64,000 nt of DNA from Okeania sp. SIO1I7 (GTDB lineage: Bacteria > Cyanobacteriota > Cyanobacteriia > Cyanobacteriales > Microcoleaceae), in contig JAAHGF010000024.1 of assembly GCA_010672585.1 (NCBI GenBank), positions 1-64,000 of the forward strand, read 5' to 3'. Positions 1,829-22,100 of this stretch are shown here, piece after piece. The notes beneath the pieces were generated by a model that worked only from the letters and a program-made list of their open reading frames with translations, searched no databases and had not been told where the DNA came from. Positions within the stretch are counted from its first letter, which is position 1. Each line of letters opens with the position of its first letter. Position numbers and translations under genes: made by a program.

Positions 1829-2284
1829 ATGCAAAATATTGGCGAAATCATGGATAACCATGTTCTATGGGTTGCTCTCCTAGCTTGTGCAATAGCTCAA
1901 GTTCTCAAGGTAGTGGTGGAGTTAGTTCAAAATGGTAAGATTAATTTACAGGTTTTAGTCACAGCAGGAGGAATGCCCAGCTCTCATTCTGCATTTGTAG
2001 CTGCACTGGCAGTAGGAGTTGGTCAAGCAAAAGGTTGGGGGAGTCCAGAATTTGCACTAGCTTTAGTTTTTGCCATCATAGTAATGTATGATGCAGCGGG
2101 AGTTCGTCAAGCTGCCGGACTACAAGCAAAAATTCTCAATCAAATTATAGATGAATTTTTCCAAGAAGACCACCATCTCAGTCAAGAACGTCTTAAAGAG
2201 TTATTAGGCCATACTCCTGTACAGGTAATAGTAGGTTTTGCTTTAGGAGTCGCTGTATCTTGGGTTGCTAGTTTTAGTTATTGA
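1829..2284 (+). CDS. Divergent PAP2 family membrane protein (DUF212)
   Basis: A 151-residue, mostly hydrophobic protein with GGMPSSHSAFVAALAVG (a diverged PAP2-phosphatase signature) near residues 48-64 and MYDAAGVRQAAG near 87-98, the hallmark of the DUF212 / divergent PAP2 family. Three to four membrane segments are visible. In cyanobacteria this family commonly follows crtE, as here; its biochemical role is unsettled and phosphatase activity should not be assumed. An AGGGG ribosome-binding site lies just before the ATG at 1829; a second ATG at 1850 is possible. Its 3' end overlaps the convergent gene at 2274 by 11 bases. Confidence 0.88.
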   Translation: MQNIGEIMDNHVLWVALLACAIAQVLKVVVELVQNGKINLQVLVTAGGMPSSHSAFVAALAVGVGQAKGWGSPEFALALVFAIIVMYDAAGVRQAAGLQAKILNQIIDEFFQEDHHLSQERLKELLGHTPVQVIVGFALGVAVSWVASFSY

Positions 2285-2954
2285 TTGATTTAATTCTAGG
2301 ACTAATTAATGTTACCCGACTACTATCCACAACAAAAGCTAAAAATCCACGGTTGCTTAATTTAAACAAACTATTTGTAGCAGCTTTCCTATTTTCAGTA
2401 TATGTCACCAACAAGAAAGGTTTTTGTCCATAGGCAACTAAGCCTACATTACGCCCCAAACTTCTTTCCAACTGTAGAGCAATTTCTGGTTGATTATTAT
2501 AATCTACTAAAACGGCATAACCTGTACCCAGAGGTTGAGGATTAAATCCTATTTCTGGAGGCGCTGGTAATGGAGTATCTGATGGAGTTGTTTCTTCACT
2601 AGGTCTAACTACATAAGCAGATAACCCCACAATGTCCTGAATATAACGCGCCCAATCACTAGCCACATCTTGGTCATCAAAACCTCGGATACTACTAACA
2701 GTCTGGTCAATATAGCGACATACTTCGATGATAATATCTGGCGGTAGACTCCGCCTAACTATATCTTGAGCTGCTGATGTCTCTGTAATTATTACCAGTA
2801 AGTATTCGTTATTAGCAGGGGATTGACAATTTTCTAGACTAATAGCATAGTTAGTATCAATAGTCAAGGATGACAAATATAAGAAAGCTGAAGCCATAAA
2901 AGTTTTCAGGCCCCCCAAGCAGAATTTATTGAGTTGCAGTTGAGTATCATTCAT
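2274..2954 (-). CDS. Conserved cyanobacterial hypothetical protein
   Basis: About 226 residues from the ATG at 2954 (a TTG four codons upstream is less likely). A hydrophobic segment near residues 15-40 looks like a signal peptide or membrane anchor. The rest is a soluble domain ending in a conserved-looking block (GTGYAVLVDYNNQPE ... LLVTYTENRKAA ... GFLAFVVDSSRVTLIS). A Pro-rich linker sits near the middle (TPLPAPPEIG). I recognise the style of an exported cyanobacterial protein but cannot assign a function. It is convergent with the PAP2-like gene and overlaps its last codons. Confidence 0.8.
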   Translation of the reverse strand: MNDTQLQLNKFCLGGLKTFMASAFLYLSSLTIDTNYAISLENCQSPANNEYLLVIITETSAAQDIVRRSLPPDIIIEVCRYIDQTVSSIRGFDDQDVASDWARYIQDIVGLSAYVVRPSEETTPSDTPLPAPPEIGFNPQPLGTGYAVLVDYNNQPEIALQLERSLGRNVGLVAYGQKPFLLVTYTENRKAATNSLFKLSNRGFLAFVVDSSRVTLISPRIKSINN

Positions 2955-3417
2955 GGCTAAAAACAAAGCAGGGGTTCAACAATTAATTATTAATTATTAA
3001 TTATTAATTATTAATTATTAATTATTACCTCTCCTTGAAAACGGATAGGATTGACGGAAAAGGGAAATTAATTCATTGTTTCTCCTTTCAAGGGGAGGCT
3101 TTAAACCTTAATTATTCGGCAAGAGACCCATCCCTAACTCCTCCTGGAACGTCACGCTTAGAAAAATTGTATCCTTTGATTTTTTGAAATTTCGTACATC
3201 TTGGTAGAGTTAGTTAACCAAAAATATAGAGTTGTCAATATTCTCTGGTGACAATGAATTAGCTTTGGTACAGAGGAGGAGGAAATCTGATATCTTCTCA
3301 AGATACAAGATAGATGAAGATAATTCTTATATAATCCGGTTATATAGTATATGTTGATCATTCTATAATTACTTCAATATTCAACCTCCCCCACTCCCCT
3401 ACTCCCCTACTCCTATC
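2955..3417. other. Repeat-filled intergenic region
   Basis: An ATTAATT tandem (about 2980-3026) is joined to an inverted copy of the dispersed CCTCTCC...GGGGAGGC element (about 3027-3118). A CCCCTACTCC tract lies near 3390-3410. The one open frame here (3158-3361) has no homology I recognise and low-complexity composition, so I do not call it. Confidence 0.55.
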
Positions 3418-3759
3418 TCATGACTCTTTCACAGAAGCATCCTCAAGAGAAGCTAAAGGTTCTGGGATAGAATCTGAAGGTGCTTGAAATTCACCTGTAA
3501 TTACAGACTCCAAACGTAACTTTAACCAAGTAATAAATTTAGGGTTAGTAGAAATAATCGCTGCAGCAGGTTGAGGACATTTTGTCTTGATACTAGCCAT
3601 TTCAGAAGCTTCTAAAAAAGCAGGCTGAGGAACCAGCCAAAAATCTATTTCTTTTTCCTTTTCGTGATAATCTCTGGTGCGTTCCCTAAAAACTTCTTCC
3701 AGGGGTTCTTCCTCTAGTAAAAACTTTTTACTAGCTAAAACGTAATAGTAAGTTTGCAT
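3418..3759 (-). CDS. ycf54: Ycf54, subunit of the Mg-protoporphyrin IX monomethylester cyclase
   Basis: A 113-residue protein from the ATG at 3759. The N-terminal TYYYVLASKKFLLEEEPLEE, the central EKEIDFWLVPQPAFLEA and the ITWLKLRLE block match the Ycf54 / DUF2488 family known from Synechocystis Slr1780. Ycf54 is needed for assembly or stability of the oxygen-dependent cyclase (with AcsF) that forms the fifth ring of chlorophyll. The length matches the family. It appears monocistronic, between repeat-rich spacers, and lies near crtE, whose product supplies the phytyl chain of chlorophyll, though I infer no shared operon. Confidence 0.93.
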   Translation of the reverse strand: MQTYYYVLASKKFLLEEEPLEEVFRERTRDYHEKEKEIDFWLVPQPAFLEASEMASIKTKCPQPAAAIISTNPKFITWLKLRLESVITGEFQAPSDSIPEPLASLEDASVKES

Positions 3760-4219
3760 TTCAATCAATCAACAGAAATTAAAATTAGTAATTACCGAAT
3801 AATTAATAATTAAATAATGAAACAATTCAGGTTAAAACCCTCCCCATGAAAGGGAAAAAAATAATTTTTTTCCTTATCGATCAATACTATTCCTTTTAAA
3901 GCTATCCCTTATAAGGAACTCCTGAAAACCTTGTGGGAAGTAGGGGAGTAGGGGAGTAGGGAGCAGGGGAGAAAGGATAAAGAATCATAGTAGATCAGAA
4001 AAACTACTTAAGTTATCAAAAAAAACGTACTTTTAAATACACTTTTTCTCTGACAAAAACTTGTTAAAAGCTTCTACATAACTTGTCTACTTTGTCAAGT
4101 TTTATGTTAAGAAAAATGTTGATAAAGCATAGCTTTTAAAGAGAGGTAATTATCAATTATCCATTATTCATTATCCATTATCCATTATCCATTATCAATT
4201 ATCCATTATCAATTATCCA
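3760..4219. other. Repeat-rich intergenic region between ycf54 and pdxJ
   Basis: Contains a partial CCCTCCCC...GGG dispersed element (about 3835-3905), a GGGGAGTAGGGGAG tract (3935-3970), and a long ATTATCCATT tandem (about 4148-4230) that runs into the stop codon of pdxJ. No gene is visible. Confidence 0.55.
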
Positions 4220-4939
4220 TTATCCATTAATAATGGCTTGTTTCATCTCGCGGACAGCTCGCTCCATACCCACGAGTACCGCCCTAGAAATAATTGTATG
4301 ACCAATGTTGAGTTCTTCCATACCTTCTAGACAAGCAACTGGATAAACATTCCAGTAAGTGAGGCCATGTCCAGCATTAACTCGAAGTCCAGCAGCGGTC
4401 GCCATTTTGCAGCCATCTGCCAAAATCGTCAATTCTTGATGGCGAGTGGCCTCATCAGTAGCTTCTGCATAACATCCTGTGTGAAGTTCAATAAACTTAG
4501 CCTGAATTTCTGCGGAAGCCTCAATCTGGGCTTTTTCTGCATCAATAAACATACTGACAGGAATATCCGCTCCTTGCAACTGGGCTACAACTTCTCTCAT
4601 ACGAGGAATATTACTAGCAACATCTAAACCACCTTCAGTCGTTACTTCTTCCCGACGTTCTGGTACAAGAGTAATATAATCAGGCTTAATATCCAGAGCG
4701 ATCGCCACCATTTCTGTAGTAGGTGCCATCTCCAGATTCAAATGAGTCCGCACCGTTTGTCGCAGAATATGGACATCTCGTTCCTGAATATGGCGACGGT
4801 CTTCCCGCAGATGAACAGTAATACCATCAGCTCCAGACAGTTCAGCTAAAACTGCTGCTGCTACTGGATCTGGTTCTACAGTTTGTCGCGCTTGTCTAAT
4901 TGTGGCAACGTGGTCAATGTTGACACCTAGAGTGGGCAA
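4220..4939 (-). CDS. pdxJ: Pyridoxine 5'-phosphate synthase
   Basis: Condenses 1-deoxyxylulose 5-phosphate with 3-amino-2-oxopropyl phosphate in the DXP-dependent vitamin B6 pathway. The 239-residue length fits. Motifs seen: N-terminal [15 protein letters not shown] (residues 4-18), HLREDRRHI near 44, the ITLVPERR block near 92, and [12 protein letters not shown] near 190. The only start that keeps the conserved N-terminus is TTG (4937-4939), with a GGGAG ribosome-binding site 9 bases upstream and no in-frame ATG nearby. The last codons (IING, then TAA) are written by the ATTATCCATT repeat downstream, so the extreme C-terminus is repeat-derived. Confidence 0.93.
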
Positions 4940-5485
4940 TTTTTGATTCTCCCGGTCGTGTTAATCAATTTGCCATATTAGTTTAGTTGGAAATGTTCAC
5001 TTGAGCAACTATTTCTTAGGAATCTTATTGTCCAGGCACTTAAAAATTTTACTTAGGTAGGTCAAACTAATATATAAATAGATATAGTTGTGATGAGAAT
5101 TAAAATTTTTCTCTCACCTATACTCTTAGTTTGATATTGATTTCTGACTACTTATTAGAATCCCTGTAAATTTAATTCACAGAGCAGTCAATGATTAGTC
5201 TTTAAATCAATTATATACTAAGAAAAAATACGTTATTGCTGTTTGCATCTCTGTTAATTTATGGCTTTCCAAATCAATTTTTAACCTTGATGAAGATTTA
5301 GAGTTTTTGATAATCATATAAAGATTAAACAAGTGTCGATTAAACGCTTATTCCACTCGAAACTAATACATTGGTTTTGAATCAATACTCTATGTTCTAA
5401 ATTCAGGAATTTGGTACTTAATTAAAATTGCAAATAGCTATAACTAAAAAAATATAACTGTTTAGTTCTACATTGGAGCTGTAGC
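4940..5485. other. Intergenic region upstream of the split lysozyme gene
   Basis: AT-rich, without a gene or repeat I can name. It must hold the promoters of pdxJ (minus strand) and the lysozyme gene (plus strand). A TTGGAGCT sequence a few bases before the ATG at 5486 may act as a weak ribosome-binding site. Confidence 0.4.
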
Positions 5486-5587
5486 ATGGAAATATCACAA
5501 AATTGTCTAGACTTAGTCAAAAAATGGGAAGGACTTTTTCTGGATGCTTATCTAGACCCAGTAGGAATACCAACCATTGGGTATGGA
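5486..5587 (+). CDS. Lysozyme exon 1
   Basis: Codes residues 1-34 and holds all three lysozyme catalytic positions (E15, D24, T30). It ends ...GGGTATGGA, directly before intron 1, which opens GTGCGACTCG at 5588. Frame phase at the junction is 0. Confidence 0.88.
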
Positions 5588-8500
5588 GTGCGACTCGTTG
5601 GCCACTAAACTTACAAAGTAAGGTATAAATGGCCGTTCCGAGTCAACACATGAGGAAAACCTCGACTCGCGAATAACTCTTATAACCTTGGTGGTGAAAT
5701 TCCATCCGCCTTGTTGTTGGGTTGACAGCATAGGCCACAGGGTAGCGACTGAACATCAATCCCTGAAGCTGGCCTAAATGGAATCAAAGCTTTAACTACC
5801 AAATAAGTGAGATTTCTAGCAAAGATTGACAAGTGGACGAACAGGAAAGTAATGAAACTCTCGTGACAATTTACCACTCCAAAGGTAGCTATGGAGTGTA
5901 GGGCAAAATAATAGCCAGAAGGTCAATGGGTATAAATATTCCATAGTTTATACCAACAACCATACTGAATCTTCCGGGAGATTTTACTCCACTAAATCAA
6001 TCGCAATAAAGGTATAAGGGAACGAGGAAACCTCTCTTTGACACCTAAGAACACAGGTCGAAAATTTAGGAAGCCATTCAAGGTCAATCTGCACGAAACG
6101 GTTGCAGGTCAAAGAGAGAGTAGGATTGGGTAAGAAGCTAAATAATTGATAATTGATAATGAAAGAGTTTTTTTTAATCTCTAATTTTCTAGAGAACTTT
6201 CTAATACTCTAATTATCCATTATTCATTATCCATTAAATGCAGACGTACCCACTGTTAGACGGCGCGACCTGAAAGGTCACTTGAACTGGAACACCATGT
6301 TCCCTAGGGATTTCCACCCCTAGCCCTCACAGAAAAGACTCTACGAGTCCGGTCATGTCAAAAGTAAGTAATGAAATTGGCAGAATGCAGACCCTGAAAG
6401 TAACCGAAGCTACAAGGGATTATGTGGCCAGGAGCAAGAGGGAAAAGAGTAGTAAGGATGAACAAAGCTAAGTTGTTGACTAAACTGCGTGATAGTGGAA
6501 ACAGCCAAATTATCCCTGAAAGGCTGTAACCAAAAAGGTAAGGGAGTAGGTTTAGATGTTCGTTTATCATCTAAACGTGGAAACAAAACTCTCCCCGCAG
6601 AAGAGACAACCATCCTCAACTATCTCAAAAGAAACTTCAAGTGATACAACAGGGTAAACCCTACAGAGTCTCGTGAGGAAGGTCGAACCGATGAGTAAGT
6701 CCGAGGTAACAAAGACAGAACTCTCTGGAGGGTAGAAGATGAGAGAAAAAGCGAATGTCACCTTGTAATGGGGTGAATAGGGGTACCCAACAGGGAAGCC
6801 TAACGGCTACAAAATTTGCCCTTGACCGAAAGGAATAGCAGACTTCTCTTGGGTCTTATACGAAAAGATTTCAGTACAAGTAGAAACCAAACGAGGATAT
6901 AAGTTAGGTGTCAAGCACAAGTTTGATAAATGGAGTCAACGGACAATTAACGGACTGGTCACAGGTCAACTGGAAAAAAGCCCGGCAAATTGTTAGGAAT
7001 TTACGTCACAGAATCTTTCGTGCCCGAAAACTTGGTCAATGGAAGCAACTCAGAAGGTTGCAGAAATTGTTAATCAAAAGCCGAGCCAACCTATTGCTTA
7101 GTGTAAGACAAATCACTCAGGTTAATACCGGAAAGAAAACCGTAGGAATTGATAAGGAGGTAATTAATACCCCTGCACAGCGAGTGAAACTTGTCAAGGA
7201 ATGGGAAATGCCAAAAGCATCACCGACAAAACGGGTGTATATTCCTAAGTCCAATAGCAAGAAACGACCCCTCGGAATCCCAACCGTCAGGGATAGAGTC
7301 GCACAAGCAATAGTCAAAAACGCACTAGAACCCGAATGGGAATCCCAATTTGAGGCCAATTCCTATGGCTTCCGACCGGGAAGAAGTTGCCATGATGCCA
7401 TCGAAAGATGTTTCAATCGACTAAATAATGGCATCACGGGAAAACATAAGTGGGTTCTAGACGCTGATATCAAAGGCTTCTTTAACAACATCGCCCATGA
7501 ATCCATTCAAGAAGTGATTGGCTCGTTCCCGCGCGGAGAGCTAATTAGAGGATGGTTAAAATCAGGGTTTATTGATGAGGGAAAATTCAACCAAACTCAA
7601 ACAGGCACTCCTCAAGGTGGTGTGATCAGTCCATTACTTGCAAATATTGGACTGCACGGGTTAGAAGAATATATAAAAACAGTCTACCCAAAGCTAGGCA
7701 TCATCAGGTATGCGGATGACTTTATAGTTACCGCTAAAGACAAAGAATCTTTGGAACAAGTGCTTATTCTGATCAAGCAATGGTTGTTAAATAGAGGTCT
7801 GGAAATCAGCTCGGAGAAGACAAGGATAGTACACATAAAAGACGGGTTCGACTTCCTGGGGTTCAACTTACGCCAATACAAAGGCAAACTACTCATAAAA
7901 CCCCAAAAAGAAAAAGTACTAGCCTTCTGTAAAAAGATAGGAAATATCCTATCTCAAATGAAGGCCAGTACTCAAGAAGAAGTTATTAAAACCCTCAATC
8001 CACTTCTTTTGGGTTTTGCTAATTATTACAGAGGAGTAGTTAGCAAAGAAACCTTCTCATACATAGAAAATCGTGTATGGCATGACCTCTACCGTTGGGG
8101 ATTACGTCGGCACCCCAACAAAAGTAAAAATTGGGTATTTGAGCGCTACTTCGGTAGTTTTAAGAGGAGAAATGGTACTTTTATGTGCAAAGGGACTGAT
8201 AGAAAAGGAAAAGAGCATTTATATGTTCTTTACGATATCAGTAGTACACCCATAGTTAGGCACATAAAAGTCAAAGGAAAATAAGAGTCCTGATGACCCC
8301 TCACTCCAAGAATATTGGGAGAAACGAAGCATTAAAACTGGAAAGAATTATTGGGCAAGAGGTTCTAAATATGAACAAATAGCCAAATTCCAGGCGTTGG
8401 ATCGAGTCCGGTGTGTGGAGATCACCTATTTAATGGAGAGCTAATAGAAACCCATCATATAGTACCTGTGGCGAAAGGTGGTTCTGATGACCCAGAAAAC

Positions 8501-11500
8501 CTAATGCACTTACACAAGGTGTGTCATAAGCAGGTACATTCTAAAACCCAAGTTAAAAGGCTTGAAGTAAGGCTTGAGCCGTGTGATAGGTAACTGTCAC
8601 GCACGGTTCTTAGGGGAGGGGAGAGCGGCGACGCTCGAACCTTACCCGATTAATGTAAGGCAATGAATAGTAATGAATCAAGCCAAAATACTAAAGAAAA
8701 GTTAGGAAACTCCAAACCATTCTTAAGTGTGGCATGGGATACATACCATATACCCTCTAAAACATCCATTAACCCGACACTTAAATAAATGGAAGGATAT
8801 AAATTGGAAACAAGTAGAGAAGTATGTATTCAAATTGCAAAAATTGATTTACAAAGCATCCAGTTGTGGCGAATTCCGCAAGATGCACAAATACCAAAAA
8901 CTTCTAAACAAAAGTTACAACGCTGTTAAAACAGCAAAAGAATAAAAGTGCATTTTGTGGACTACACTTTAGACCATCAACCTATCCCACTATTCTAAAA
9001 ATGCTTATTTATTTAAGTAAAATTTTCCTGAAAAGCTAGATTTTTCGTTTTTATCTTTAAAAATATTTTCAGCAAAAATATTATTAGTGGGATAGGTTCA
9101 TAGGATTTAATTGAAGTTGACCAAATTATCTCTAGGTCTAAAGGCGGTAAAAATAGCTTTAAAAACAAACAGGTATTACACCGACATTGCCACGACGTGA
9201 AGACTGCCGAGGATTTAAAAGCAGTAAACTCTTAGGACTCATTAAGTCCAAAAGTGTAATTTTAAGGATGTACCCATGACAAGGGGCGTTTAAGAGAGGA
9301 GCCAGATGAGGTGAAAATCTCACGTCCGGTTCTGAAGACGAGCAGACCTTATAAAGGATTAACCGGAAATGGGTTTGCTTAGTTTAACACCATTCGTTAT
9401 CCCAACGGAAAAAAAGTTCAGCTAGGAGACAGAATTACAGAAAGAAATGCAGAATTATATTTAAAGTATGAATGCGACAAAGCAGCAGAAGTAGTTTTGA
9501 GACTGGTTCAAGTTCCTCTGAATCAAAATCAGTTTGATGCTCTTGTATCCTTCTGTTATGTGCGACTCGTTGGCCACCAAACCAAAAGAAATTGGGTATA
9601 AATGGCCGTTCCAAGTCAATACATGAGGAGAACCTCGACTTGTGAATAACTCTTATGTCCTTGGTGGTGAAATTCCATCCGCCTTGTTGTTGGGTTGACA
9701 GCATAGACCACGGGGTAGCGAATGAACATCAATCCCCGAAGCTGGTCTAAATGAGGCCAAAGCTTTAACTACCAAATAAGTGAGGCTGCTAGCAGAGACT
9801 GACAAGTGGACGAATAGAAAGGTAATTAAACTCTCGTAAACGATATCCATTTCAAAGGTAGCTATGGAATGTAGGACGAAAGTCAGAGGGTAAATGGATA
9901 TGGATCTATAACAGTTCATATCAACAACCATAACGAACCCTCCGGGAGATTTTGCCCCACTAAATCAGTCGCAATAAAGGCATAAGGGAACGAGGAAACC
10001 TCTTTAAGACACCTAAGAACACAGGTCGATAACTTAGGAAGCCATTCAAGGTCAATCTACGCAAAACGGTCGTAGGTCTTAAGGAGAGTAGGATTGGGTA
10101 AAAAGCTTATCTAAGCAGACGTACCCACTTTTGAGTGTAATGTAAGGCAGTGATAAGTAATGAATAAAGCTAAAACACTAAAAAGAAAACTAGGAAATCC
10201 TAGACCATTTTTAAGCGTGGCATGGGACACAGACGATATACCGTCTCAAACTTCTATTAATCCAACCCTTAAGTGGAAGGATATCAACTGGAAGCAGGTG
10301 GAGAAAAACCTGTACAAGTTACAAAAGCTGATTTACAGAGCATCCAGACGTGGCAAACTCCGCAAGATGCGTAAATACCAAAAACTTCTGACCAACAGTT
10401 ACTACCCTATGTTACTAGCCATTAGACGTGTTACGCAGGACAATCAAGGGAAGAAAACCGCGGGAATAGATGGTATCAAGAATCTACTTCCTATGCAAAG
10501 ACTTAACCTAGTAGAACTGCTCAAAACACAATACCTTAAGGCGAGTCCAACTCGCAGAGTCTGGATACCAAAACCAGGCAAAAATGAAAAACGTCCGCTA
10601 GGCATCCCTACGATGTACGACCAAGGGTTACAAGCTTTGATTAAGCTAGGGATAGAACCAGAATGGGAGGCACGTTTTGAACTTAATAGTTATGGATTCA
10701 GACCCGGACTGTCAGCACATGATGCTATACAAGCCATCTATAAAAGCATAAGACAAAAGTTCAAGTATGTCTTAGACACCGATATATCCAAATGTTTTGA
10801 CCGAATTAACCATGATGTAATGCTAAGAAAAATTGGAAAATCTGCCTACAGACGATTAATCAAACAATGGTTAAAGTCAAGTGAAGTTCCTATTATTAGG
10901 TACATCAAAGTGAAAGGTGAAAAATCACCATACGATGGTGAGTGGACATATTGGAGTAACAGAAACGGCAAACATCCCGGCATAAGAAAAGAAGTAACAA
11001 AACTACTAAAAAGTCAGAAGAATAAATGCGCATATTGTGGATTAACCTTTAGACCAATGGTATAAATCGAAGTTGACTACATTGTCTCTAGGTCTGAAGG
11101 TGCTGATAACACATACAAAAATAAACAAGTGTTACATCGATATTGCCACTACTCAAAAACTGCCAGCGACTTAAAAGCAGTTAACCATTAAGGACTCATT
11201 AAGTCCAAAGGTGGAATTTTAAGGATGTACCCATGACAAGGGACGCTTAAGAGAGGAGCCAGATGAGGTGAAAGTCTCACGTCCGGTTCTGAAGACGAGC
11301 AGACCCTATAAAGGATTACCCGGAAATGGGTTTGCTTAGTTTAACAACGTTGGAACTGGTGCTTTTCAAAGTAGTACCATGTTAAGAAAACTCAATCAAG
11401 GAGACTATCAAGGAGCAGCAAATGAATTTCCACGCTGGGTAAACGGAATAGTAAATGGTGTGAAGAAACCACTGCCAGGTTTGGTATCCCGTCGTGCTGA

Positions 11501-13805
11501 CGAACAAAAGCTATTCAACACTGGTAGCAATGAAGGAAAACCCTTAGTTCAAGAAGAATCATTGCAAGATCAAGTAACTTGGCTAGAAGGATACAGAGAT
11601 GAAAATAAAAAAACTGTAGTTGTAGCTTGGCAGGGAGGTAAAGTAGGAGAAATATTAACTTTAGAAAAATTTGACAAAGAGTATTTAGCTAATGTTTTTC
11701 CTCTATACAAAAATGCCAGAAATTTTGTCATTGCTCCGGCGAATAAACCAATTCCAGCAGGTGAAAGAGTATCAATTTTTGGCATCTCTGATATATTCAA
11801 GAGAGGTCAAACTCCTAGCCTTAATCGTGTCTTAGTGCGGGGTAGTCAAGGGGAAGATGTGAGGATTTTACAGGTTAGATTGAAAGATTTAGGGTACTAT
11901 ACCGGAAAAATTGATGCTTTTTTTGGTAATAAAACTGAATTAGCAGTTATAGACTTTAAGCAAGATTATTTTTTCAATACCAATGCTGACGGTACAGTAA
12001 ACTTAACAACCTGGCAAAAATTGTGGGGAGAAAAGCCTGCTCCAGTTCCTCCTACACCCCCTGGGACTACAGGCAAAAATTATTTGCTGCTAACAAAAAC
12101 AGATCGTAAAGATATCTATGGATGTTATGTGCTGAACTTAGACGTGCGACTCGTTGGCCACTAAACTGGGAAACTAAGTATAAATGGTCGTTCCAAGTCA
12201 ATACATGAGGAGAACCTCGACTTGTGAATAGCTCTTATGTCCTTAGTGGTGAAATTCCACCGCCTTGTTGTTGGGTAGAAAGCATAGGCCACGGAGTAGC
12301 GACTGAACATCAATCTCCGAAGCTGGCCTAAATGGGGTCAAAGCTTTAACTATCAAATAAGTGAGACTTCTAGCAGAGACTGACAAGTGGACGAACAGGA
12401 AGGTAATCAAACTCTCGTAAGCAGTAGCCATGCCAAAGATAGTTACGGTATGTAGGACCAAAGTCAGTGGGTCAATGGATAATCCTATGTCTAAGGGAAT
12501 TATCAACAACCATATCGAACCTACCGGGAGAATTTACCCCACTAAATCAGTCGTAATAAAGGAATAAGGGAACGAGGAAACCTCTCTTTGACACCTAAGA
12601 ATATAGGTCGAGAACTTAGGAAGCCATTCAAGGTCAATCTGCACAAAGGATGCAGGTCAAAGAGAGAGTAGGATTGGATAATAAGCATAATTATGCAGAC
12701 GTATCCACTGTTAGACGTAATGTAAGGCAATGATTAGTAATGAATAAAGCTCAGACACTAAAAAGAAAGTTAGGCAATCCTAAGCCCTTTCTTGAGTGCG
12801 TCTTACATTCTGAGGAGACCTCAGAATTACGCACTCGCTTTTTAAGCGTAGCATGGGATACAGATGATATACCTTCACAAGTTTCAATCAATCCTAACCT
12901 TCGATGGAAGGATATTAATTGGAAGAAGGTAGAGAAATCTGTGTTTAAATTACAAAAATTGATTTACAGAGCATCCATGAGTGGCGAAATCCGCAAGATG
13001 CACAGTCGGTAAATACCCAGGCGTAAGGAAAGAAGTTACAACGCTGTTCAAACAGCAAAAAGGTAAATGTACATCTTGTGGATTACATTTCAGACCAACG
13101 GATTTAATCGAGGTTGACCACATCGTTCCTCGGTCTGAAGGTGGTGATAACACATACAAAAATAAACAAGTGTTACACCGACATTGCCACGACGTTAAGA
13201 CTGCCAAAGACTTAAAAGCAGTTAACCATTAAGGACTCATTGGGTCTAAGGTGGAATTTTAAGGATGTGCCCATGAAAAGGGACGTTTAAGAGAGGAGCC
13301 GTGATGAGGTGAAAGTCTCACGTCCGGTTCTGAAGACAAGCAGACCCTATAAAGGGCAACCGGAAATGGGTTTGCTTAGTTTAACTATTTTAAAAATGGG
13401 AAACTACAGGACAGATTAGAAGTATGTTGTGGCGCTCCGGGAAGACAATATTTCCGTACCGCTGCTCAAAGTAGGGCAATGACTGGAGAACCATTGCCAG
13501 AGGGAAAATGGTACGTTAACGATATTATCTGGGCTGATGGGAGAGATAATTATTACGGTAATATTTTTCAGAGTGGTATCGGTCCAGTAACTGTTCCATT
13601 AGATTATTTAGAACCTGGTACTACAGAAAGAAGTGCGATCGAAATTCATATTGACTGGAATCGCAATTATGGCTCCCCTGGCACTGTGGGTTGTATAGCG
13701 ACCTACAATATAGATGAGTATAAAACCTTAGTTACTTGGCTCAGGGACACAGACCCTCGCGACCTCTATGTTGACTGGAAACTAGGAACTTGTCCTAAAC
13801 CTTAG
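5486..13805 (+). CDS. Split GH24 lysozyme with peptidoglycan-binding and transpeptidase-like C-terminal domains (four exons, three group II introns)
   Basis: Exons 5486-5587, 9389-9559, 11346-12143 and 13386-13805 join in frame into 496 residues plus a TAG stop. Residues 1-150 are a T4-type lysozyme: E15, D24 and T30 line up with the catalytic Glu-Asp-Thr (WEGL...YLDPVG..PTIGYG), followed by TIRYPNG, ALVSFCYNVGTGAFQ (crossing an intron junction) and LPGLVSRRADE. Residues about 252-320 are a peptidoglycan-binding-1 domain (RGSQGEDVRILQVRLKDLGY). A Pro-rich linker follows, then a C-terminal domain with IHIDWN...PGTVGC, reminiscent of the His/Cys motif of L,D-transpeptidases. It presumably acts on the cell wall. 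No signal peptide is visible. Without splicing, the product would stop soon after residue 34. Confidence 0.88.
6908..8284 (+). CDS. ltrA: Group II intron reverse transcriptase / maturase (nested intron)
   Basis: A 458-residue protein starting at GTG 6908. Motifs: KRPLGIPTVRDRVAQ (RT2), NSYGFRPGRSCHDAI (RT3), LDADIKGFFNNI (RT4/A), TGTPQGGVISPLLANI (RT5), IIRYADDFIVTA (catalytic YADD), FDFLGFNLR (RT7), then the maturase domain X with LLLGFANYYRGV, and the VRHIKVKGK end that normally leads into an HNH endonuclease. The RT and maturase parts look intact. The HNH domain is in other frames after the TAA at 8282. It would promote splicing of its own intron; retro-mobility by target cleavage is likely lost. 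Confidence 0.92.
   Translation: MSSTSLINGVNGQLTDWSQVNWKKARQIVRNLRHRIFRARKLGQWKQLRRLQKLLIKSRANLLLSVRQITQVNTGKKTVGIDKEVINTPAQRVKLVKEWEMPKASPTKRVYIPKSNSKKRPLGIPTVRDRVAQAIVKNALEPEWESQFEANSYGFRPGRSCHDAIERCFNRLNNGITGKHKWVLDADIKGFFNNIAHESIQEVIGSFPRGELIRGWLKSGFIDEGKFNQTQTGTPQGGVISPLLANIGLHGLEEYIKTVYPKLGIIRYADDFIVTAKDKESLEQVLILIKQWLLNRGLEISSEKTRIVHIKDGFDFLGFNLRQYKGKLLIKPQKEKVLAFCKKIGNILSQMKASTQEEVIKTLNPLLLGFANYYRGVVSKETFSYIENRVWHDLYRWGLRRHPNKSKNWVFERYFGSFKRRNGTFMCKGTDRKGKEHLYVLYDISSTPIVRHIKVKGK
8285..8592 (+). pseudogene. Frame-shifted HNH endonuclease tail of the nested-intron maturase
   Basis: Reading from 8287 gives SPDDPSLQEYWEKR...NYWARGSKYEQ, the usual continuation after HIKVKGK. Near 8412 a further one-base change moves the frame again, giving VCGDHLFNGELIETHHIVPV and ENLMHLHKVCHKQVH, the Cys/His-rich HNH core. 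Two shifts separate this domain from the RT, so it is not made as a fusion. The frame ends just inside domain V (8576), as expected for an ORF in intron domain IV. Confidence 0.8.
8673..9235 (+). pseudogene. Degraded maturase of outer intron 1
   Basis: The 5' part aligns with the maturase start in introns 2 and 3 (WKDINWKQVEKYVFKLQK). The whole RT is deleted, leaving a junction near KSYNAVKTAK to the C-terminal HNH end (CAF/CGLHFRP-type block, then LHRHCHDVKTAEDLKAVN). A MITE interrupts the HNH part at 8979-9098. There are several stops and frame changes. It cannot make a functional maturase. Confidence 0.8.
8979..9098. mobile_element. 120-bp MITE inside the intron-1 maturase remnant
   Basis: Perfect 13-bp terminal inverted repeats, AACCTATCCCACT at 8979-8991 and AGTGGGATAGGTT at 9086-9098, around an AT-rich core. 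The same position in intron 3 has no insert. A possible TCA target duplication flanks it. A related half-end (AGTGGAATAGGTTCATA) lies at about 34563-34580, next to the P450 gene. Confidence 0.8.
9389..9559 (+). CDS. Lysozyme exon 2
   Basis: Codes residues 35-91 (TIRYPNGKKVQLGDRIT ... QNQFDALVSFCY). It continues exon 1 in phase 0 and ends ...TTCTGTTAT before intron 2 opens at 9560. It is only 171 bases long and invisible to a simple gene caller because it has no start of its own. Confidence 0.87.
9560..11345 (+). mobile_element. Group II intron 2 in the lysozyme gene
   Basis: Begins GTGCGACTCGTTGGCCAC, ends GCTTAGTTTAAC. Domain V is at 11256-11290 (GAGCCAGATGAGGTG ... GTCCGGTTCT). It separates TTCTGTTAT from AACGTTGGA, which together encode FCYNVG of the lysozyme fold. 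It holds an internally deleted maturase gene in domain IV (10160-11065). Its sequence closely matches introns 1 and 3 at both ends. Confidence 0.87.
10160..11065 (+). pseudogene. Maturase of intron 2 with the catalytic RT part deleted
   Basis: An open frame of 301 residues, so it looks like a gene, but the RT core is missing. It runs from the N-terminus through PLGIPTMYDQGLQ, NSYGFRPGLSAHDAI and LDTDISKCFDRINHD (motif A), then jumps through KSAYRRLIKQWLKSS straight to PIIRYIKVKGE, skipping the YADD motif, RT7 and domain X. The HNH domain starts (KCAYCGLTFRP) but ends at a TAA at 11063-11065, where introns 1 and 3 read on; HNH codons continue after the stop to about 11190. Annotated pipelines may call it an intact RT; it cannot be catalytic. 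Confidence 0.88.
11346..12143 (+). CDS. Lysozyme exon 3 (end of GH24 domain and peptidoglycan-binding domain)
   Basis: Codes residues 92-357, beginning NVGTGAFQSSTMLRKL, the continuation of the lysozyme fold. The peptidoglycan-binding domain sits at about 11826-12030, followed by PAPVPPTPPG, a linker. It ends ...CTGAACTTAGAC before intron 3 at 12144. Automated callers will likely start it at the internal ATG 11379 and read through into the intron to 12164. Confidence 0.88.
12144..13385 (+). mobile_element. Group II intron 3 in the lysozyme gene
   Basis: The shortest of the three at 1242 bases. Same ends (GTGCGACTCGTTGGCCAC ... GCTTAGTTTAAC). Domain V is at 13296-13331 and carries one extra base next to GAGCC compared with introns 1 and 2. 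It lies between TTAGAC and TATTTT, preserving the frame. The maturase gene is almost entirely deleted. It preserves the uninterrupted target site that reveals the nested insertion in intron 1. Confidence 0.86.
12740..13232 (+). pseudogene. Maturase remnant of intron 3
   Basis: The N-terminal region (MNKAQTLKRKLGNPKPFL ... WKDINWKKVEKSVFKLQK) is followed directly, in another frame, by the HNH end (GKCTSCGLHFRPTDLIEVDH, SEGGDN, LHRHCHDVKTAKDLKAVNH). All of the RT is gone. A 48-base palindromic insert near 12793-12840 (GAGTGCGT ... ACGCACTC) adds residues after PFL that the intron-2 copy lacks. Confidence 0.85.
13386..13805 (+). CDS. Lysozyme exon 4 (transpeptidase-like C-terminal domain)
   Basis: Codes residues 358-496 from YFKNGKLQDRLEVCCGAPG to the stop. 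It contains EPLPEGKWYVNDIIWADG and AIEIHIDWNRNYGSPGTVGC, where His and Cys are spaced as in YkuD-like L,D-transpeptidase folds, without the usual HGC tripeptide. Activity is therefore uncertain. Callers will likely start it at 13479. Confidence 0.87.
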   Translation, partial: YFKNGKLQDRLEVCCGAPGRQYFRTAAQSRAMTGEPLPEGKWYVNDIIWADGRDNYYGNIFQSGIGPVTVPLDYLEPGTTERSAIEIHIDWNRNYGSPGTVGCIATYNIDEYKTLVTWLRDTDPRDLYVDWKLGTCPKP

Positions 13806-14090: not shown

Positions 14091-15800
14091 ATGGCTTATA
14101 GAATAAACCGTCGCGCCTATGCTGAAACTTATGGACCAACAATAGGCGATCGCCTCCGTCTAGCTGACACAGAATTATTTATAGAAGTCGAGCAAGACTA
14201 TACCACTTATGGGGATGAAGTAAAATTTGGTGGAGGCAAAGTCATCCGCGATGGTATGGGGCAATCTCCCATTGCTAATGCTGATGGCGCAGTGGATCTA
14301 GTCATTACCAACGCTCTCATCCTGGACTGGTGGGGTATTGTCAAAGCAGATATCGGTATTAAAGATGGTAAAATCTGCAAAATTGGCAAAGCAGGCAACC
14401 CCTACATCCAAGATAATGTAGATATTATCATCGGTCCGGGAACTGAAGCTGTAGCAGGTGAGGGCATGATTTTAACGGCAGGGGGGATTGATGCCCATAT
14501 TCATTTTATTTGTCCCCAACAAATCGAAACAGCGATCGCTTCTGGTATCACAACTATGTTAGGGGGAGGAACAGGTCCTGCCACAGGTACTAATGCAACT
14601 ACCTGTACTCCTGGTCCTTGGAATATTCACCGAATGTTGCAAGCTGCTGAAGCTTTTCCGGTAAATCTGGGTTTTATGGGCAAGGGTAACAGCAGTCAAC
14701 CCCAAGCTTTGGTCGAACAAGTATTAGCAGGGGCGATGGGATTGAAATTACATGAAGATTGGGGAACCACTCCAGTGGCGATCGACACCTGCTTAAATGT
14801 TGCGGACGAATACGATGTGCAAGTTGCTATCCACACCGATACTCTCAATGAAGCAGGGTTTGTAGAAACCACCATAGAAGCTTTTAAAAACCGGACAATT
14901 CATACCTATCACACTGAAGGTGCGGGAGGCGGTCACGCTCCAGATATTATCAAAGTCTGCGGTCAAGCAAATGTTTTACCTTCTTCTACTAACCCCACTC
15001 GTCCTTATACTCTCAATACTTTGGAAGAACATTTGGATATGTTGATGGTCTGTCATCATTTAGATCGAAATATTCCAGAGGATGTGGCTTTTGCAGAGTC
15101 TCGCATTCGCCGAGAAACTATTGCTGCTGAGGATATACTGCACGATTTGGGAGCGTTTAGTATGATTGCTTCTGATTCTCAGGCCATGGGACGTGTGGGA
15201 GAGGTGATTATTAGGACTTGGCAAACTGCTCACAAAATGAAGATTCAGCGCGGACATTTGAGTGGAGAGTCTGGGGAAAATGATAATTTGCGTGCTAAAC
15301 GTTATGTGGCAAAATACACGATTAATCCGGCGATCGCTCATGGTATTGCTGAGTATGTGGGTTCGGTGGAAGTGGGAAAGTTGGCAGATTTATGTTTGTG
15401 GCGACCTGCCATGTTTGGGGTGAAACCGGAAATTGTGATTAAGGGAGGAGCTATTGCTTATGCTCAGATGGGAGATGCGAATGCAAGTATTCCTACTCCA
15501 CAACCAGTGGTTATGCAGCCAATGTTCGGTAGTTTTGGGGGAGCGATCGCTGCTACTTCCCTAACTTTTGTTTCTCAAGCTTCCCTGGAAAGTGGTATTG
15601 ATGCTCGACTACAGTTGAGAAAGTCAGCAGTCGCAGTGGCAAATACTCGGCAAATTAGCAAACAAGATATGAAGTTAAATGATGCTTTGCCAGAAATAGA
15701 AGTTGACCCGGAAACTTATGAGGTTAGAGCTGATGGGGAGTTATTGACTTGTGAACCTGCAACAGTTTTACCTATGGCACAGCGATATTTTCTGTTTTAG
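14091..15800 (+). CDS. ureC: Urease subunit alpha
   Basis: Catalytic subunit hydrolysing urea to ammonia and carbamate. The start at 14091 ([20 protein letters not shown]) gives 569 residues, the normal length; an ATG 12 codons earlier gives an unusual extension. Seen: [14 protein letters not shown] (nickel ligands), GLKLHEDWG containing the Lys that is carbamylated, [10 protein letters not shown], the flap [15 protein letters not shown]-type segment with the catalytic His, ASDSQAMGR, and the conserved C-terminal PMAQRYFLF. No ureA, ureB or accessory gene lies next to it here, unlike the usual ureABC order. A tail fragment of a second copy lies at 30467. Confidence 0.96.
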
Positions 15801-16137: not shown

Positions 16138-19100
16138 TTAGAAGAGAATACCATCTCCACGACCAAGACTAACAAGGGTTTCATCCACCCTCAGGAGTTC
16201 ATCCTCCTCGATATTTTGGGAGAAACCAATCTCACCATCATCACTTAGGTCTACATTGAACTCTGATTCTAAAGGTAAAAGGTCGTTGCCAGATAACCAA
16301 CCGGAATTGTCGTTGATTACACCTTGGTCATTAGTGCTCCAGACATAAGCTTCACCCTCTCGGTTGTTTTCGCCGTCGAGGAGGAAGCGATAACCACCCT
16401 CCTCATCTACCTCAACGGCAACACCATCCCAGTTAGCATTGGTAATGTCTGTGTAGGTTGTGCCTCGATTGTTTTGCAGTTGTAACTGTTCTTTTGTGTC
16501 ATTGTTGACGATCCAATAAGTGCCGTCCTCGTCTTTGGCGAAAGCTGCTGTACCGTCGTCTTCAATGATAGTTAGAGGAGGTTCAATTTCTGATTGAACT
16601 TCTAGAGAGAAATTGCCGAAGTTAATATCTTCTACGTTTTCGCCACTGCCTACCTCTACGGTGTGGTAAAGATTAGTTTCTGAAGCTGTTACTGTTACAT
16701 CATCAATGTACCAGCCTTCAAAGTTATTAAATGCTCTGTCCTCAGTAGCAAACTCGAAACTGACCTGAATTTCTTGACCTGCATAGGGACTGAGGTCAAA
16801 TGTTACATTAGTCCAGTCTGTAGCAGGGTCTTCTAATTCCACAGCATTGGAAGCAATGGGAATAAATTCACCACCATCTGCCGAAACCAATACTGTAGCC
16901 ACATCATAGTCAGGGGCTAAACCTTCAGTCTCCAAGAAGTAGTTAAAGGAAAGTTGGGCACTGTCTAATCCATTTAAGTCAATAATTGGAGAGGTTATTC
17001 GGCCTGCGGTATCTCCGGCATCATAATTGCCATCTTCTTCGATACCATAGTACATACTGTCTACACCACTGTGACCGGGTTCATTTCCACGTCGGGTGGA
17101 TAAATGCCACAAGCCGTCATCTGGTGCTCCAGTATTATCAACAGTAAAGCCATCCAAATCTGGATTATCATCATCATCACTGAAGTCTGCCTCAAAGATT
17201 ATTTCAGCCTGAGAAGGATAAGTTTGCTCCCATTCATCTTGGAGTTCTTCCGCTACAATATAAGTTCCGGTGTCTACATCGAAGCTATAGTAGCCTTCTT
17301 CATCAGTGACAGTGGAAATTTCTCCATCGTCGAGTTCGCCGTTTTCGTTGTCGTCGATGAATATAGTCCAACCCTCTAATCCCTCTTCATTATCGTCCCA
17401 TTCGCCGTTACCATTGGTATCATTCCACTTGTAACCAGAGATGGAGCCAGGGAGAATTTCCTGGTTACCGAAGTTGATGTCAGTAACTTCTTCGCCACTG
17501 CCCACTGAGACGATGTGAGGCTGAGATTCTTCTGATGCCAGATCGATCTTAACTGCTAAACCTGACTCAGCATAACCGTCGTTATAGGATATTTCAAGAC
17601 CTTCAGAGCCGTCTGCATTTTCAATACCAATAGTGTTACTGTCTAAAATCCCATTGAGGGTTTCGTACTGGTAAACAATGCTGCCATCTGGTTTGAGAAT
17701 TGCCTCGAAGGTATAATCTCCCGACTGATCGATATTATAAATATTCTGATATTGGACGATGAATTGCTCCTCATCCGCATCGTAGTAGTAATAAACCTCA
17801 CCACCATCAGGAGGAAACAAGTCATCCCAGAATGGAGCAATCAGATCGTTCGGTTCATTAGGATTAGGAATTGGTTCGTTAATAAAATTGAAACCATCAG
17901 AGCCAAAGGTCAGATAGCCATTGGAGGAAATCTTGATTGTTGACTTGTCTTCACCGTAGAACGGAAAATCAAAGGGTAGAGCCACCTCTGCATAATCGTC
18001 ATCAAAGAAACCAAGTGGAGTTCCTACATCAGAAATATCAATCCAGTCGAACTCGGTTTCCATCCACTGGTATTCTCCTGGAGCAAGGGGATAAGTCTGC
18101 TTCCAATTCGGTTGCTGCTCTTCAGCTACAATATAAGTTCCGGTGTCTACATCGAAGCTATAGTAGCCTTCTTCATCAGTGACAGTGGAAATTTCCCCTT
18201 CGTCGAGTTCGCCGTTTTCGTTATCGTCGATGAATATAGTCCAACCTTCTAATGCTGGTTCTTCTTCCTCGTCCCAGATGCCATCGCCATCAATATCGTG
18301 CCATTTGTAACCTGATATGGAACCAAGTTCTTGGTTGAGGTTGCGGTTACCAAAGTCAATATCTTCAACGTCTTCGCCATTACCGACCTCTACAGTATGG
18401 TAAGGATCGCCTGCTATAGTTTGTACCACAACATCATCAACTAACCAACCTTCAAATTCGTTAGCTATTCCATCATTAGTCTCAAAATCAAAGCTAATTT
18501 CGATTTGTTGACCGACATAGGAACTGAGGTCTAATGTTGCATTCGTCCAGCCTGTAGTTGGGTCTTGTAATTGCACAGGATTAGATCCAATAGGAACAAA
18601 AGCACCGCCATTTTCCGAAACCAATACTGTGGCTGCATCATAGATAGGGGCGCCACCTTCCGTCTCTAGGAAGTAGTTAAAGGAAAGTTCTGCACTATCT
18701 AATCCAGTTAAATCAATCACTGGAGAAATTATTCGACCAGCAGTATCTCCGGCATCATAGTTGCCAGTATCTTCGATGCCATAATACATACTATCTTCAG
18801 CACTGTGACCAGGTTCATTGCCACGTCGGGTAGATAGATGCCATAAGCCTTCATCTGGTGCCCCAGTATTGTCAATAGTAAAGCCATCTAAATCTGGATT
18901 GCCCTGATCGTCACTGAAGTCAGCTTCAAAGACTATTTCGGCTCCACTTCCAGGATAGGTTTGCTCCCATCCATCTTCAATGACTTCTGCAACTTTGTAA
19001 GTTTCAGGGTCTAACTCCTCGAAGGTATAGAAACCATCTTCATCGGTGACAGTGGAGATTTCGCCATCATCGAGTTCCCCGTTTCCGTTCTCGTCGATGT

Positions 19101-22100
19101 ATATAGTCCAACCTTCTAGCCCATCTTCATCATTGTCCCAAATACCATTACCATCGACATCATTCCACTTGTAACCAGATATGGAACCAGGGAGAATTTC
19201 CCGGTTACCAAAGTTGACGTCAGTAACATTTTCACCCCAGTCTAATTCTACGCGATGAGTTCCGGGAACTCCTACTTCAGATATGGCATTGAATGCATTC
19301 AAGCGAGCCCCTGTGACAGTGATACCATCCAGTGCCGGAATTGGGTCAGCACTCTCTAGAATGATTTCTTTGACCTCTTCGTAGCTCAAGTCTGGGTTTT
19401 CTGCCAAAATCAAGGCTGCCACCCCTGACACATGAGGGGCCGCCATGGAAGTACCACTGAGGAAGCCATAACCACCTCCTGGTATAGTGCTATAAATGTT
19501 TGAACCAGGCGCTCCTAAATCTACCGACGTAGCTCCGTAGTTAGAGAAACCAGATAAATTATCGTTGTGGTCTGTGGAAGCAACTGAAATGATGTTTTCT
19601 AAGTCGTAGCTATCTGGGTAAGATGGAAATATATCGTTGTTGTTGGCGCTGTTACCTGCTGCTGCCACAAACAAAGAATCTGCTGCACCTGCTGCTGCGA
19701 TCGCATCATACAATCCTTGAGAAAAGCCTCCACCTCCCCAACTGTTGTTGGTTAGGTCTGCTCCCATCATCGTCGCGTATTCTATCGCCAAAATTGCGTT
19801 GAAGGTCGAACCAGAGCCAAAGTCATCCAGGAACTTGAGTGCCATCAAGTCAGCGTCCCAATTAACCCCTACTACTCCTAGTGAGTTATTACCCTCTGCT
19901 GCAATGGTGCCGGAGACATGAGTTCCGTGAGAATCACCATCGAATGGGTCGTTGTCACCGTAGGCAAAATCGTAACCATTAACATCATCTACATAACCGT
20001 TGTTGTCATCGTCGATACCATTGCCGGCAATTTCACCAGGATTGACCCAGATATTATTGGCCAGGTCTGGATGAGTGTAGTCGATACCACTGTCGATGAC
20101 TCCCACAACTACATTGTTATTACCTGTTTGAATATCCCACGCTTCTGGTGCATCAATATCGGCGTCGGGGGTGCCTCCAGTTTGCCCGGTGTTGTGCAGT
20201 CCCCACAATTGGTCAAAACTGGGGTCGTTGGGAAATGTCGCATTGTTACTAACGATGAAGTTGGGTTCGATGAAGTCCAGTAAGGGGTTATTCCTGTTCC
20301 TGGCAATGACATCTTCCACATTCCCTTCAATAGACCACAGTTGGAGGCCACTAAGAGCCAGTGTTTTTGTTGTATTGATTGTAGTCGCCCCTAGGCTGGC
20401 TTTCAGGCTATTGAGAGAGCTAGCATCAGCATCTTCACTGGCCTTGACAATCACTTGTCCTGACTCAAAAGCTGCTTCCAAGGGAATTTCTGAGTCTCGG
20501 TTTGACTCAGTACGGTCGTTCTCGGACTCAATTGCAGATGGTTCAGATGCTGCATCTTTAGTATCGTTACTAACAGATACTTTCCGAGTGTTGGTTTCAG
20601 AGCTGCTTAAAGATGATTGAGACCGAGCTGCAGTTTCTCCTTCTTCTGGCACTATTGAATCTGGATAGGTTTGCTCCCATCCTGGTTCGATGACTTCTCC
20701 AATGGTGTAACTTCCAGCGTCAAGTTCGTCGAACTCATAGTAACCTTCTTCATCGGTGACAGTAGAGAGTTCTCCTTCATCTAGTTCACCATTTTCGTTC
20801 TCGTCGATGTATATAGTCCAGCCTTCTAGTCCTGATTCATTATCGTCCCAAACACCATCGCCATCAATGTCGTCCCACTTGTAACCGGAAATTAAACCAG
20901 GTTCTTGGTTGAGGTTGCGGTTACCGAAGTTAATATCTTCAACGTTTTCGCCCTCTTCTAACTCGACAGTGTGGTAGGGATTATCCTCTGAAGTCCTCAC
21001 GATCACATCATCAACTAACCAACCTTCAAATTCGTTGACTGCTCCATCTCCAGTCTCAAAGTCAAAGCTGATTTCTATTTCTTGACCTGCATAGGAACTG
21101 AGGTCAAATGTGGCATTAGTCCAACCTGTAGTCGGGTCTTCCAATTCCACAGCATTAGATGCAATGGGAACAAAATTACCACCATTTTCCGAAATCAGTA
21201 CTGTGGCTACATCATAAGTAGGGGCGAAACCTTCAGTCTCTAGGAAGTAGTTAAAAGAAAGTTCTGCACTATCTAATCCAGTTAAGTCAATTACTGGAGA
21301 AATTATTCGACCTGCAGTATCTCCCGCATCATAGTTGCCTGTTTCTTCAAGGCCATAGTACATACTATCTTCGGCACTGTGACCAGGTTCATTGCCACGT
21401 CGGGTAGATAGATGCCATAAGCCTTCATCTTGTGCTCCAGTATTATCAACAGTAAAGCCGTCTAAATCTGGATTTCCATCATCATCACTGAAGTCAGCTT
21501 CAAAGACTATTCCTGCTCCAGTTCCTGGATAGGTTTGCTCCCATCCATCTTCAATTACTTCAGCAATGGTATAAGTTCCGGCATCAAGATCGTCGAACTC
21601 ATAGTAACCTTCTTCATCGGTGACAGTAGAGAGTTCTCCTTCATCAAGTTCACCGTTTCCGTTGTCGTCGATGAATATTGTCCACCCTTCTAATACTGGT
21701 TCATCATCGTCCCACTCGCCATCTCCATCAAGGTCGTGCCACTTGTAACCAGATATGGAACCTAATTCTTCAAGATTGCGGTTACCAAAGTTAATCTCTT
21801 CTATGTTTTCACCACTACTGAGTGAGACGATGTGAGGCTGAGGCTCTTCTGATGCCAGGTCGATCTTAACTGCTAAACCTGACTCAGCATAACCGTCGTT
21901 ATAGGATATTTCAAGACCTTCAGAGCCATCTGCATTTTCAATACCAATAGTGTTACTGTCTAAAATCCCATTGAGGGTTTCGTACTGGTAAACAATGCTG
22001 CCATCTGGTTTGAGAATTGCCTCGAAGGTATAATCTCCCGACTGATCGATATGATAAATATTCTGATATTGGACGATGAATTGCTCCTCATCCGCATCAT

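Follow-up and report, generated by a model that had tools for sequence, protein, structure and literature searches.

The window analysed here is a stretch of 64,000 nucleotides (nt) of Okeania sp. SIO1I7 (contig JAAHGF010000024.1, positions 1 to 64,000, from a genome of 9.48 Mb in 109 contigs), and it holds a lysozyme gene that is divided into four exons by three group II introns (Table 1). An earlier note on this DNA had given the exon coordinates, the phase-0 junctions and a joined product of 496 residues, and all of these hold to the base. Each of the four exons is divisible by three, all junctions fall in phase 0, and the joined exons encode 496 residues followed by a single stop. The locus covers 8320 nt, of which 6829 nt (82%) are intron, leaving a spliced gene of about 1.5 kb. 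In the unspliced message, the reading of exon 1 continues for six codons into intron 1 and then meets a stop, and the list of open reading frames (ORFs) holds parts of exon 3 and exon 4 as separate ORFs of 261 and 108 amino acids (aa).

The joined protein was found to match Phage_lysozyme (PF00959) at residues 12-144 with an E-value of 3.5e-45, covering the complete profile (1-125 of 125). The residues E15, D24 and T30, read off exon 1, are presumably the Glu-8-Asp-5-Thr catalytic triad of GH24 lysozymes. PG_binding_1 matches at 259-317, and a YkuD domain, detected when the C-terminal piece was searched by itself (26.2 bits, cut-off 23.4), extends onward from about residue 357, which is junction 3. 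The earlier claim that lysozyme, peptidoglycan-binding and transpeptidase-like domains cross the junctions stands for the lysozyme domain, which spans the junctions after residues 34 and 91, but hardly for the other two, as PG_binding_1 lies entirely within exon 3 and YkuD starts at junction 3. The predicted product is a GH24 lysozyme with PG_binding_1 and YkuD domains, a putative three-domain cell-wall hydrolase.

Table 1. Features of the intron-split lysozyme locus, in window positions (EBS, exon-binding site; IEP, intron-encoded protein; RT, reverse transcriptase; MITE, miniature inverted-repeat transposable element).
Feature	Positions	Strand	Remarks
Exon 1	5486..5587	+	residues 1-34, including E15, D24, T30 and TIGYG
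Exon 2	9389..9559	+	residues 35-91
Exon 3	11346..12143	+	residues 92-357
Exon 4	13386..13805	+	residues 358-496 and stop; YkuD-like domain
Intron 1	5588..9388	+	3801 nt; outer group IIB; contains nested intron (twintron) and other insertions
Intron 2	9560..11345	+	1786 nt; insertion site as in T. erythraeum GBRTRLIN201 and Trichodesmium MAG_R02
Intron 3	12144..13385	+	1242 nt; IEP largely deleted
EBS1, intron 1	5940..5945	+	TCCATA against exon TATGGA, 6/6
EBS1, intron 2	9908..9914	+	ATAACAG against exon CTGTTAT, 7/7
EBS1, intron 3	12489..12495	+	GTCTAAG against exon CTTAGAC, 7/7
EBS2, intron 1	5865..5871	+	4 of 7 pairing points
EBS2, intron 2	9838..9844	+	5 of 7 points
EBS2, intron 3	12419..12425	+	weak, 3.5 of 7 points
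EBS3 base, intron 1	5982	+	T; 3' exon begins with A
EBS3 base, intron 2	9950	+	T; 3' exon begins with A
EBS3 base, intron 3	12532	+	A rather than T, matching the unusual 3'-exon base T
Domains V-VI, intron 1	9296..9388	+	unpaired A at 9381
Domains V-VI, intron 2	11253..11345	+	unpaired A at 11338
Domains V-VI, intron 3	13293..13385	+	unpaired A at 13378
Repeat-rich insertion	6138..6240	+	inverted repeats; near presumed domain III/IV border of intron 1
Inner group II intron	6263..8650	+	2388 nt, in intron 1; empty site visible in introns 2 and 3
EBS2, inner intron	6494..6499	+	AGTGG of AGTGGA against CCACT of outer intron
EBS1, inner intron	6561..6567	+	CGTTTA against TAGACG, one G-U
Inner IEP	6908..8284	+	458 aa; RVT_N, RVT_1 (YADD) and GIIM maturase domain; HNH part out of frame
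Domains V-VI, inner intron	8574..8650	+	own domain V (Rfam)
Outer ORF remnant, intron 1	8651..8945	+	broken; N-terminal part of RT
MITE-like element	8979..9100	+	in intron 1; 17-nt terminal inverted repeats; 23 genome matches including itself and partial ones
Broken IEP, intron 2	10160..11065	+	301 aa; RVT_N and half of RVT_1, without YADD and without maturase domain; fused HNH-side remnant

The three outer introns share the 5' end GTGCGACTCGTTGGCCAC and the 3' end GGGTTTGCTTAGTTTAAC, and each carries a group II domain V above the Rfam gathering score, so the claim of three group II insertions with common ends was borne out. Group II introns typically begin with GUGYG and end with AY, and the ends GTGCG...AAC of all three outer introns fit this consensus. 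In minimum free energy folds of the 3' ends, the A at position -8 is unpaired in all three, and this residue is the putative branch point. Long insertions and ORF deletions sit downstream of the last conserved stretch of domains I-III and ahead of domain V (domain borders were drawn by eye), and the largest difference seen upstream of that region is 5 extra nt in intron 1. The confinement of insertions and deletions to this region is the pattern that selection for splicing would leave. From these features, the three outer introns look like working group IIB introns. Other kinds of insertion were rejected. Domain V and the exon-binding sites speak against ordinary transposons, no match to a group I family in the window rose to the Rfam gathering score, and inteins do not agree with the stops that the insertions carry in all three frames.

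Exon recognition was analysed through the pairing of EBS1, EBS2 and EBS3 with the flanking exons. EBS1 was compared with each intron's own last six 5'-exon bases in 11 introns of the outer family from the window genome and two Trichodesmium genomes (two of them orthologous; truncated row C88b dropped; region fixed by eye). The pairing amounts to 64 of 66 points, a value reached by 0 of 100000 permutations, with eight perfect fits that include all three window introns, two introns at 5.5 and one at 5.0. EBS2 covaries with its own exon over 12 introns, in a column scan that did not pick up EBS1. When alignment columns were scanned for complementarity to the base that opens the 3' exon, one column fitted 14 of 14 introns, against 13 for the runner-up. 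The best column follows both exons that do not begin with A, namely those after intron 3 (exon T, intron A) and after an intron in moaC of a second genome (L159; exon G, intron C). Since it is read as EBS3, the outer introns are assigned to group IIB. When EBS1 and EBS3 are combined, each window intron fits just one of 1477 positions in the spliced gene, and that position is the real junction.

The three insertions proposed for the gene stand, but the locus has four group II introns, because another one (6263-8650) lies inside intron 1. The earlier note mentions neither this nested intron nor the loss of the outer maturases nor the introns that the lysozyme gene carries in Trichodesmium. Judged by its sequence, intron 1 is a twintron with an unrelated group II intron inside; comparison of the inner intron with the outer introns gave no blastn similarity. 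Its insertion point is just upstream of the outer ORF start, and we place it in domain IV. The same site is uninterrupted in nine of 12 aligned rows, the remainder being intron 1 and two truncated rows, and is occupied in intron 1 and in the outer introns L158, L159 and L160. At this point, L158 of Okeania SIO3B5 (outer 3' end not delimited) carries a copy of the inner intron with 96% identity, L159 of SIO2C9 a copy with 93% identity, and L160, another SIO2C9 outer intron with no open frame around it, a partial copy. The genome of the window itself has an 82% copy as well, at L059, within what seems to be a different outer intron (ends not delimited). The L159 twintron (G004:C57, reverse strand, 2332-7337) interrupts moaC, and its joined flanks match MoaC over 1-136 of 136.

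Within the window, the inner intron pairs with its outer target by 5.5 of 6 points at EBS1 and 5 of 6 at EBS2. In most of eight inner-intron copies (fragment L163 left out), EBS1 and EBS2 follow their targets, and EBS1 of L160 and EBS2 of L159 change with the target; as exceptions, L159 has a single mismatch at EBS1, and L169, as cut, fits poorly. Spreading of the twintron as one unit was rejected, as a clade of the four twintron outer introns gave a p-value of 0.019 in the approximately unbiased test (p-AU) on the full alignment. The inner intron therefore probably homed into the domain IV site more than once. As a separate observation, locus L059 on the reverse strand of contig C55 seems to contain two group II introns head to tail, one at 2175-4717 and the next from 4719, separated by a single base (A); a copy of the inner-intron family lies within the second, at 5381-7757.

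Uninterrupted homologs of the joined protein were sought in 98 relatives, of which 89 gave some match. Six contain it whole over residues 1-496 in one open frame, with 75-93% identity and few tblastn alignment gaps (0 in G004, 1 in G002, 0 each in G011, G016 and G028, 10 in G031). Uninterrupted Okeania homologs align end to end over 1-496 at 93% and 91% identity, so a chance resemblance of the exons is ruled out. Missing or extra residues at the junctions had been named beforehand as the sign of a wrong join; none of eight uninterrupted full-length homologs, a selection from 37 loci, has an insertion or deletion at 34/35, 91/92 or 357/358. The ratio of nonsynonymous to synonymous rates (dN/dS) of the exons is 0.25 against SIO2C9 and likewise against SIO2B3. 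The window branch has accumulated 18 changes that are nonsynonymous and 16 that are synonymous (7 to 10 if outgroup-polarised), against a neutral expectation of 3.6 to 1.

The same gene is also interrupted in Trichodesmium. In T. erythraeum GBRTRLIN201 it holds one intron of the outer family, after residue 91, which is the site of intron 2. The gene of Trichodesmium MAG_R02 has three such introns, one within codon 13 and two that follow residues 91 and 100, with a 27-nt exon between the latter two (L076, 4451-4477) and a joined product that is open over 495 residues. Altogether, five intron sites are known in the lysozyme gene across Okeania and Trichodesmium. Intron 2 and the Trichodesmium intron after Y91 might go back to a single ancient insertion, with later loss in SIO2B3 and SIO2C9. 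Their identical position agrees with this, as does EBS1, which tracks the exon as co-evolution would give (TGTTAT with ATAACA for Cys90, TCTTAT with ATAAGA for Ser90, a one-base difference), and the AU test did not reject a single clade of the residue-91 introns (p-AU 0.078; 0.166 once the first 95 positions and the EBS were removed). However, the best trees set the Trichodesmium Y91 introns in another starred group, and the uninterrupted congeners SIO2B3 and SIO2C9 are without an intron after Y91, which makes one old insertion somewhat less likely than not.

It is also possible, though rather doubtful, that the three outer introns arose from one founder inside the lysozyme gene and not by three arrivals. 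A clade of the three window introns was not rejected with either of two alignments (p-AU 0.524 and 0.345), but introns 2 and 3 have relatives with 88% identity at another place in SIO2B3 (L110), intron 1 has a relative with 84% identity (L115), and the intron tree is poorly resolved. The trees differ between full and trimmed alignments, which suggests intron mosaicism; window duplicates were dropped from the tree and two identical rows from the AU tests.

Members of the outer family also interrupt other genes. A shortened intron of the window's own genome (L060, contig C88, 3975-5117) lies in frame within an RRXRR/HNH gene, presumably IscB-like, and L158 (G001:C134, 1176-2492) splits a DUF2288 gene in frame. 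Reading frames join across introns of this family in moaC of SIO2C9 and, in Okeania genomes, in the carotenoid, CYTH, RRXRR and DUF2288 genes.

None of the three outer introns has an intact IEP with both RT and maturase domains; their ORFs are broken or deleted, and intron 3 retains only a remnant. Elsewhere in the same genome, three related introns encode open IEPs with RVT_N, RVT_1, GIIM and HNH; these are 629, 630 and 623 aa long and share 77, 76 and 74% identity with what is left of the intron 2 IEP. Two are found on contig C45, where their introns lie in frame within a carotenoid synthesis gene and a CYTH gene, and one is found on C55. With their own maturases lost, the three outer introns are most likely served in trans by these related ones (two on C45, perhaps one on C55). 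Maturase action in trans has been reported for T. erythraeum (PMC4649490) and for Thermosynechococcus elongatus (PMC2882425). Alternatively, the nested intron's own maturase could splice the outer introns, so that the twintron would supply the whole gene, and its IEP is indeed the sole ORF found in the transcript with both RT and maturase domains. This is quite unlikely, because the inner IEP belongs to another family, with 46% identity to the intron 2 IEP over 207 aa compared with 74-77% for the C45 and C55 copies, and IEPs mostly serve close relatives.

The DNA itself shows the intron boundaries, their fit to the exons, the retained catalytic domains, four open and conserved exons and the nested intron, and from these we infer splicing: the precursor is very probably spliced into one message for the 496-residue lysozyme. 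In the proposed course of events, three group IIB introns of one family would have invaded the lysozyme gene at three sites, all in phase 0, and the conserved domain IV site of one of them would have been the homing target of an unrelated group II intron. The precursor RNA of about 8.3 kb would then be matured by splicing. The inner intron could be removed with its own maturase, and the outer introns would fold from their retained domains I-III and V-VI and grip their own exons through EBS1, EBS2 and EBS3. The unpaired A at -8 would serve as branch point, after which the exons would be joined, with maturases from C45, and perhaps C55, acting in trans on the outer introns.

Several observations weigh against this proposal. 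With a 7-nt EBS1 window, the pairing amounts to 69 of 77 points (0 of 100000 permutations), and intron 1 pairs best at another offset. EBS2 of the window introns pairs by 4, 5 and 3.5 of 7 points, compared with 7 of 7 in T. erythraeum, and when it is added to EBS1 and EBS3, intron 3 fits two of 1477 positions. Outside the gene, the combined EBS1 and EBS3 rule is not unique, as it fits 22, 3 and 3 of 127972 positions across the window. Promoter-like sites are not commoner than in shuffled sequence (19 against 20.3). As to the maturases, the C55 protein differs from both C45 proteins at a conserved RT motif (by eye), and an IEP of about 75% identity would have to splice the outer introns. The gene itself has a large deletion and stops in O. 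hirsuta, and SIO3B5 and SIO2F4 yielded only parts of it, so it seems dispensable. The low dN/dS may be inherited from before the insertions. Sister branches show nonsynonymous to synonymous changes of 11 to 17 (SIO2C9) and 16 to 23 (SIO2B3), and the window branch is thus somewhat looser.

Some of these points would also fit a dead gene, that is, recent retrohoming insertions in a pseudogene that still looks open. The breakage of all three outer IEPs, the decay of the gene in O. hirsuta and the higher nonsynonymous share on the window branch (18/34) than in SIO2C9 (11/28) or SIO2B3 (16/39) agree with this, yet all four exons are open and the 18 to 16 ratio is far from the neutral 3.6 to 1. Moreover, the catalytic intron domains were retained while the region between them took insertions and deletions, and Trichodesmium MAG_R02 retains its open 495-residue product across three introns. 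These data make a dead gene very improbable, and splicing of the precursor is the preferred reading.

The neighbours of the lysozyme gene are pdxJ-like and ureC-like genes (named by eye). A phage gene was considered and rejected. Among phage proteins, lysozymes of Nodularia phages rank best against exon 3 (42% over 72% of it), and the PHROGs class of the protein is endolysin, but a cellular origin is likelier in view of the pdxJ-like and ureC-like neighbours and of full-length homologs in many cyanobacterial contigs. Further along the window, an Rfam 5_ureB_sRNA match was found at 14246-14532 on the minus strand, antisense to a urease-like gene that starts at 14055. Also on the minus strand, a 4308-aa ORF with repeated subtilisin-like and SdrD-like modules (by eye) extends over 16138-29064.

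Group II introns within cyanobacterial genes have been described before. The earlier note had pointed to DNA-replication genes of Trichodesmium as precedent. In T. erythraeum, several genes are interrupted by a group II intron or by more than one, and some of these introns lack an ORF (PMC4649490). Pfreundt and Hess (2015) described a twintron in the coding gene Tery_4732, called at that time the only one of its kind in bacteria (PMC4649490). It shares with the Okeania locus a group II intron nested in another, a protein-coding host gene (in a related cyanobacterium), an IEP ORF in each of the two introns (the outer one broken in Okeania) and exons that rebuild a conserved protein. The inner intron of Tery_4732 is in domain I and most probably must leave first, whereas the Okeania inner intron, placed in domain IV, leaves the catalytic core uninterrupted, which is why the splicing order need not be fixed there. 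Unlike Tery_4732, the Okeania gene has two further introns. Other Trichodesmium intron-bearing genes resemble the Okeania locus in their ORF-less introns and trans-encoded maturase (the latter proposed for Okeania), although the host genes differ (PMC4649490).

Mohr et al. (2010) described the TeI4/TeI3 introns of Thermosynechococcus elongatus, in which inner introns occupy domain IV as in Okeania, having independently entered several outer introns at a point that lies between the first and the second start codon of the outer ORF (PMC2882425). Driver IEPs act in trans on ORF-less introns in T. elongatus, as is proposed for Okeania, and the families differ by EBS. In contrast to Okeania, the TeI inner introns lack an ORF and share a common ancestor with their outer introns; the Okeania inner intron is of another family and holds the transcript's only RT/maturase ORF. 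Few T. elongatus introns lie within genes, whereas the Okeania outer introns interrupt one (PMC2882425). The accessible text of a 2025 review names no other twintron of the Tery_4732 kind (PMC12702839), and the pipeline of a 2022 survey was described as unable to detect the outer intron of a twintron (PMC8919778). Among the literature matches listed, from a search outside which most subscription journals lie, no earlier report of introns in the lysozyme gene was found, so the parts are of known kinds and their combination is exceptional.

The splicing mechanisms proposed here are known from Trichodesmium and Thermosynechococcus, and a bacterial gene that is 82% intron and contains a nested intron is exceptional. 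It is unusual for a bacterium that several introns would have to be spliced before an enzyme can be made. One speculative reading, which is improbable, is that the lysozyme gene offers group II introns a home that is tolerated, or even favoured, again and again: splicing that depends on a maturase from another locus would act as a brake, holding a potentially lethal lysozyme at a low level until that maturase is present. If true, this would explain why five sites were colonised in Okeania and Trichodesmium. As related genomes carry the gene uninterrupted, with one intron or with three, the cost of introns is directly comparable between them. The finding is also a warning that genes which appear broken may be whole once spliced. 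With a nested intron, and with no working maturase in any outer intron, the locus has an organelle-like architecture in a bacterial gene, and dependence on trans-acting factors is a step that is assumed in the evolution of organellar and spliceosomal introns from bacterial ones (PMC4649490).

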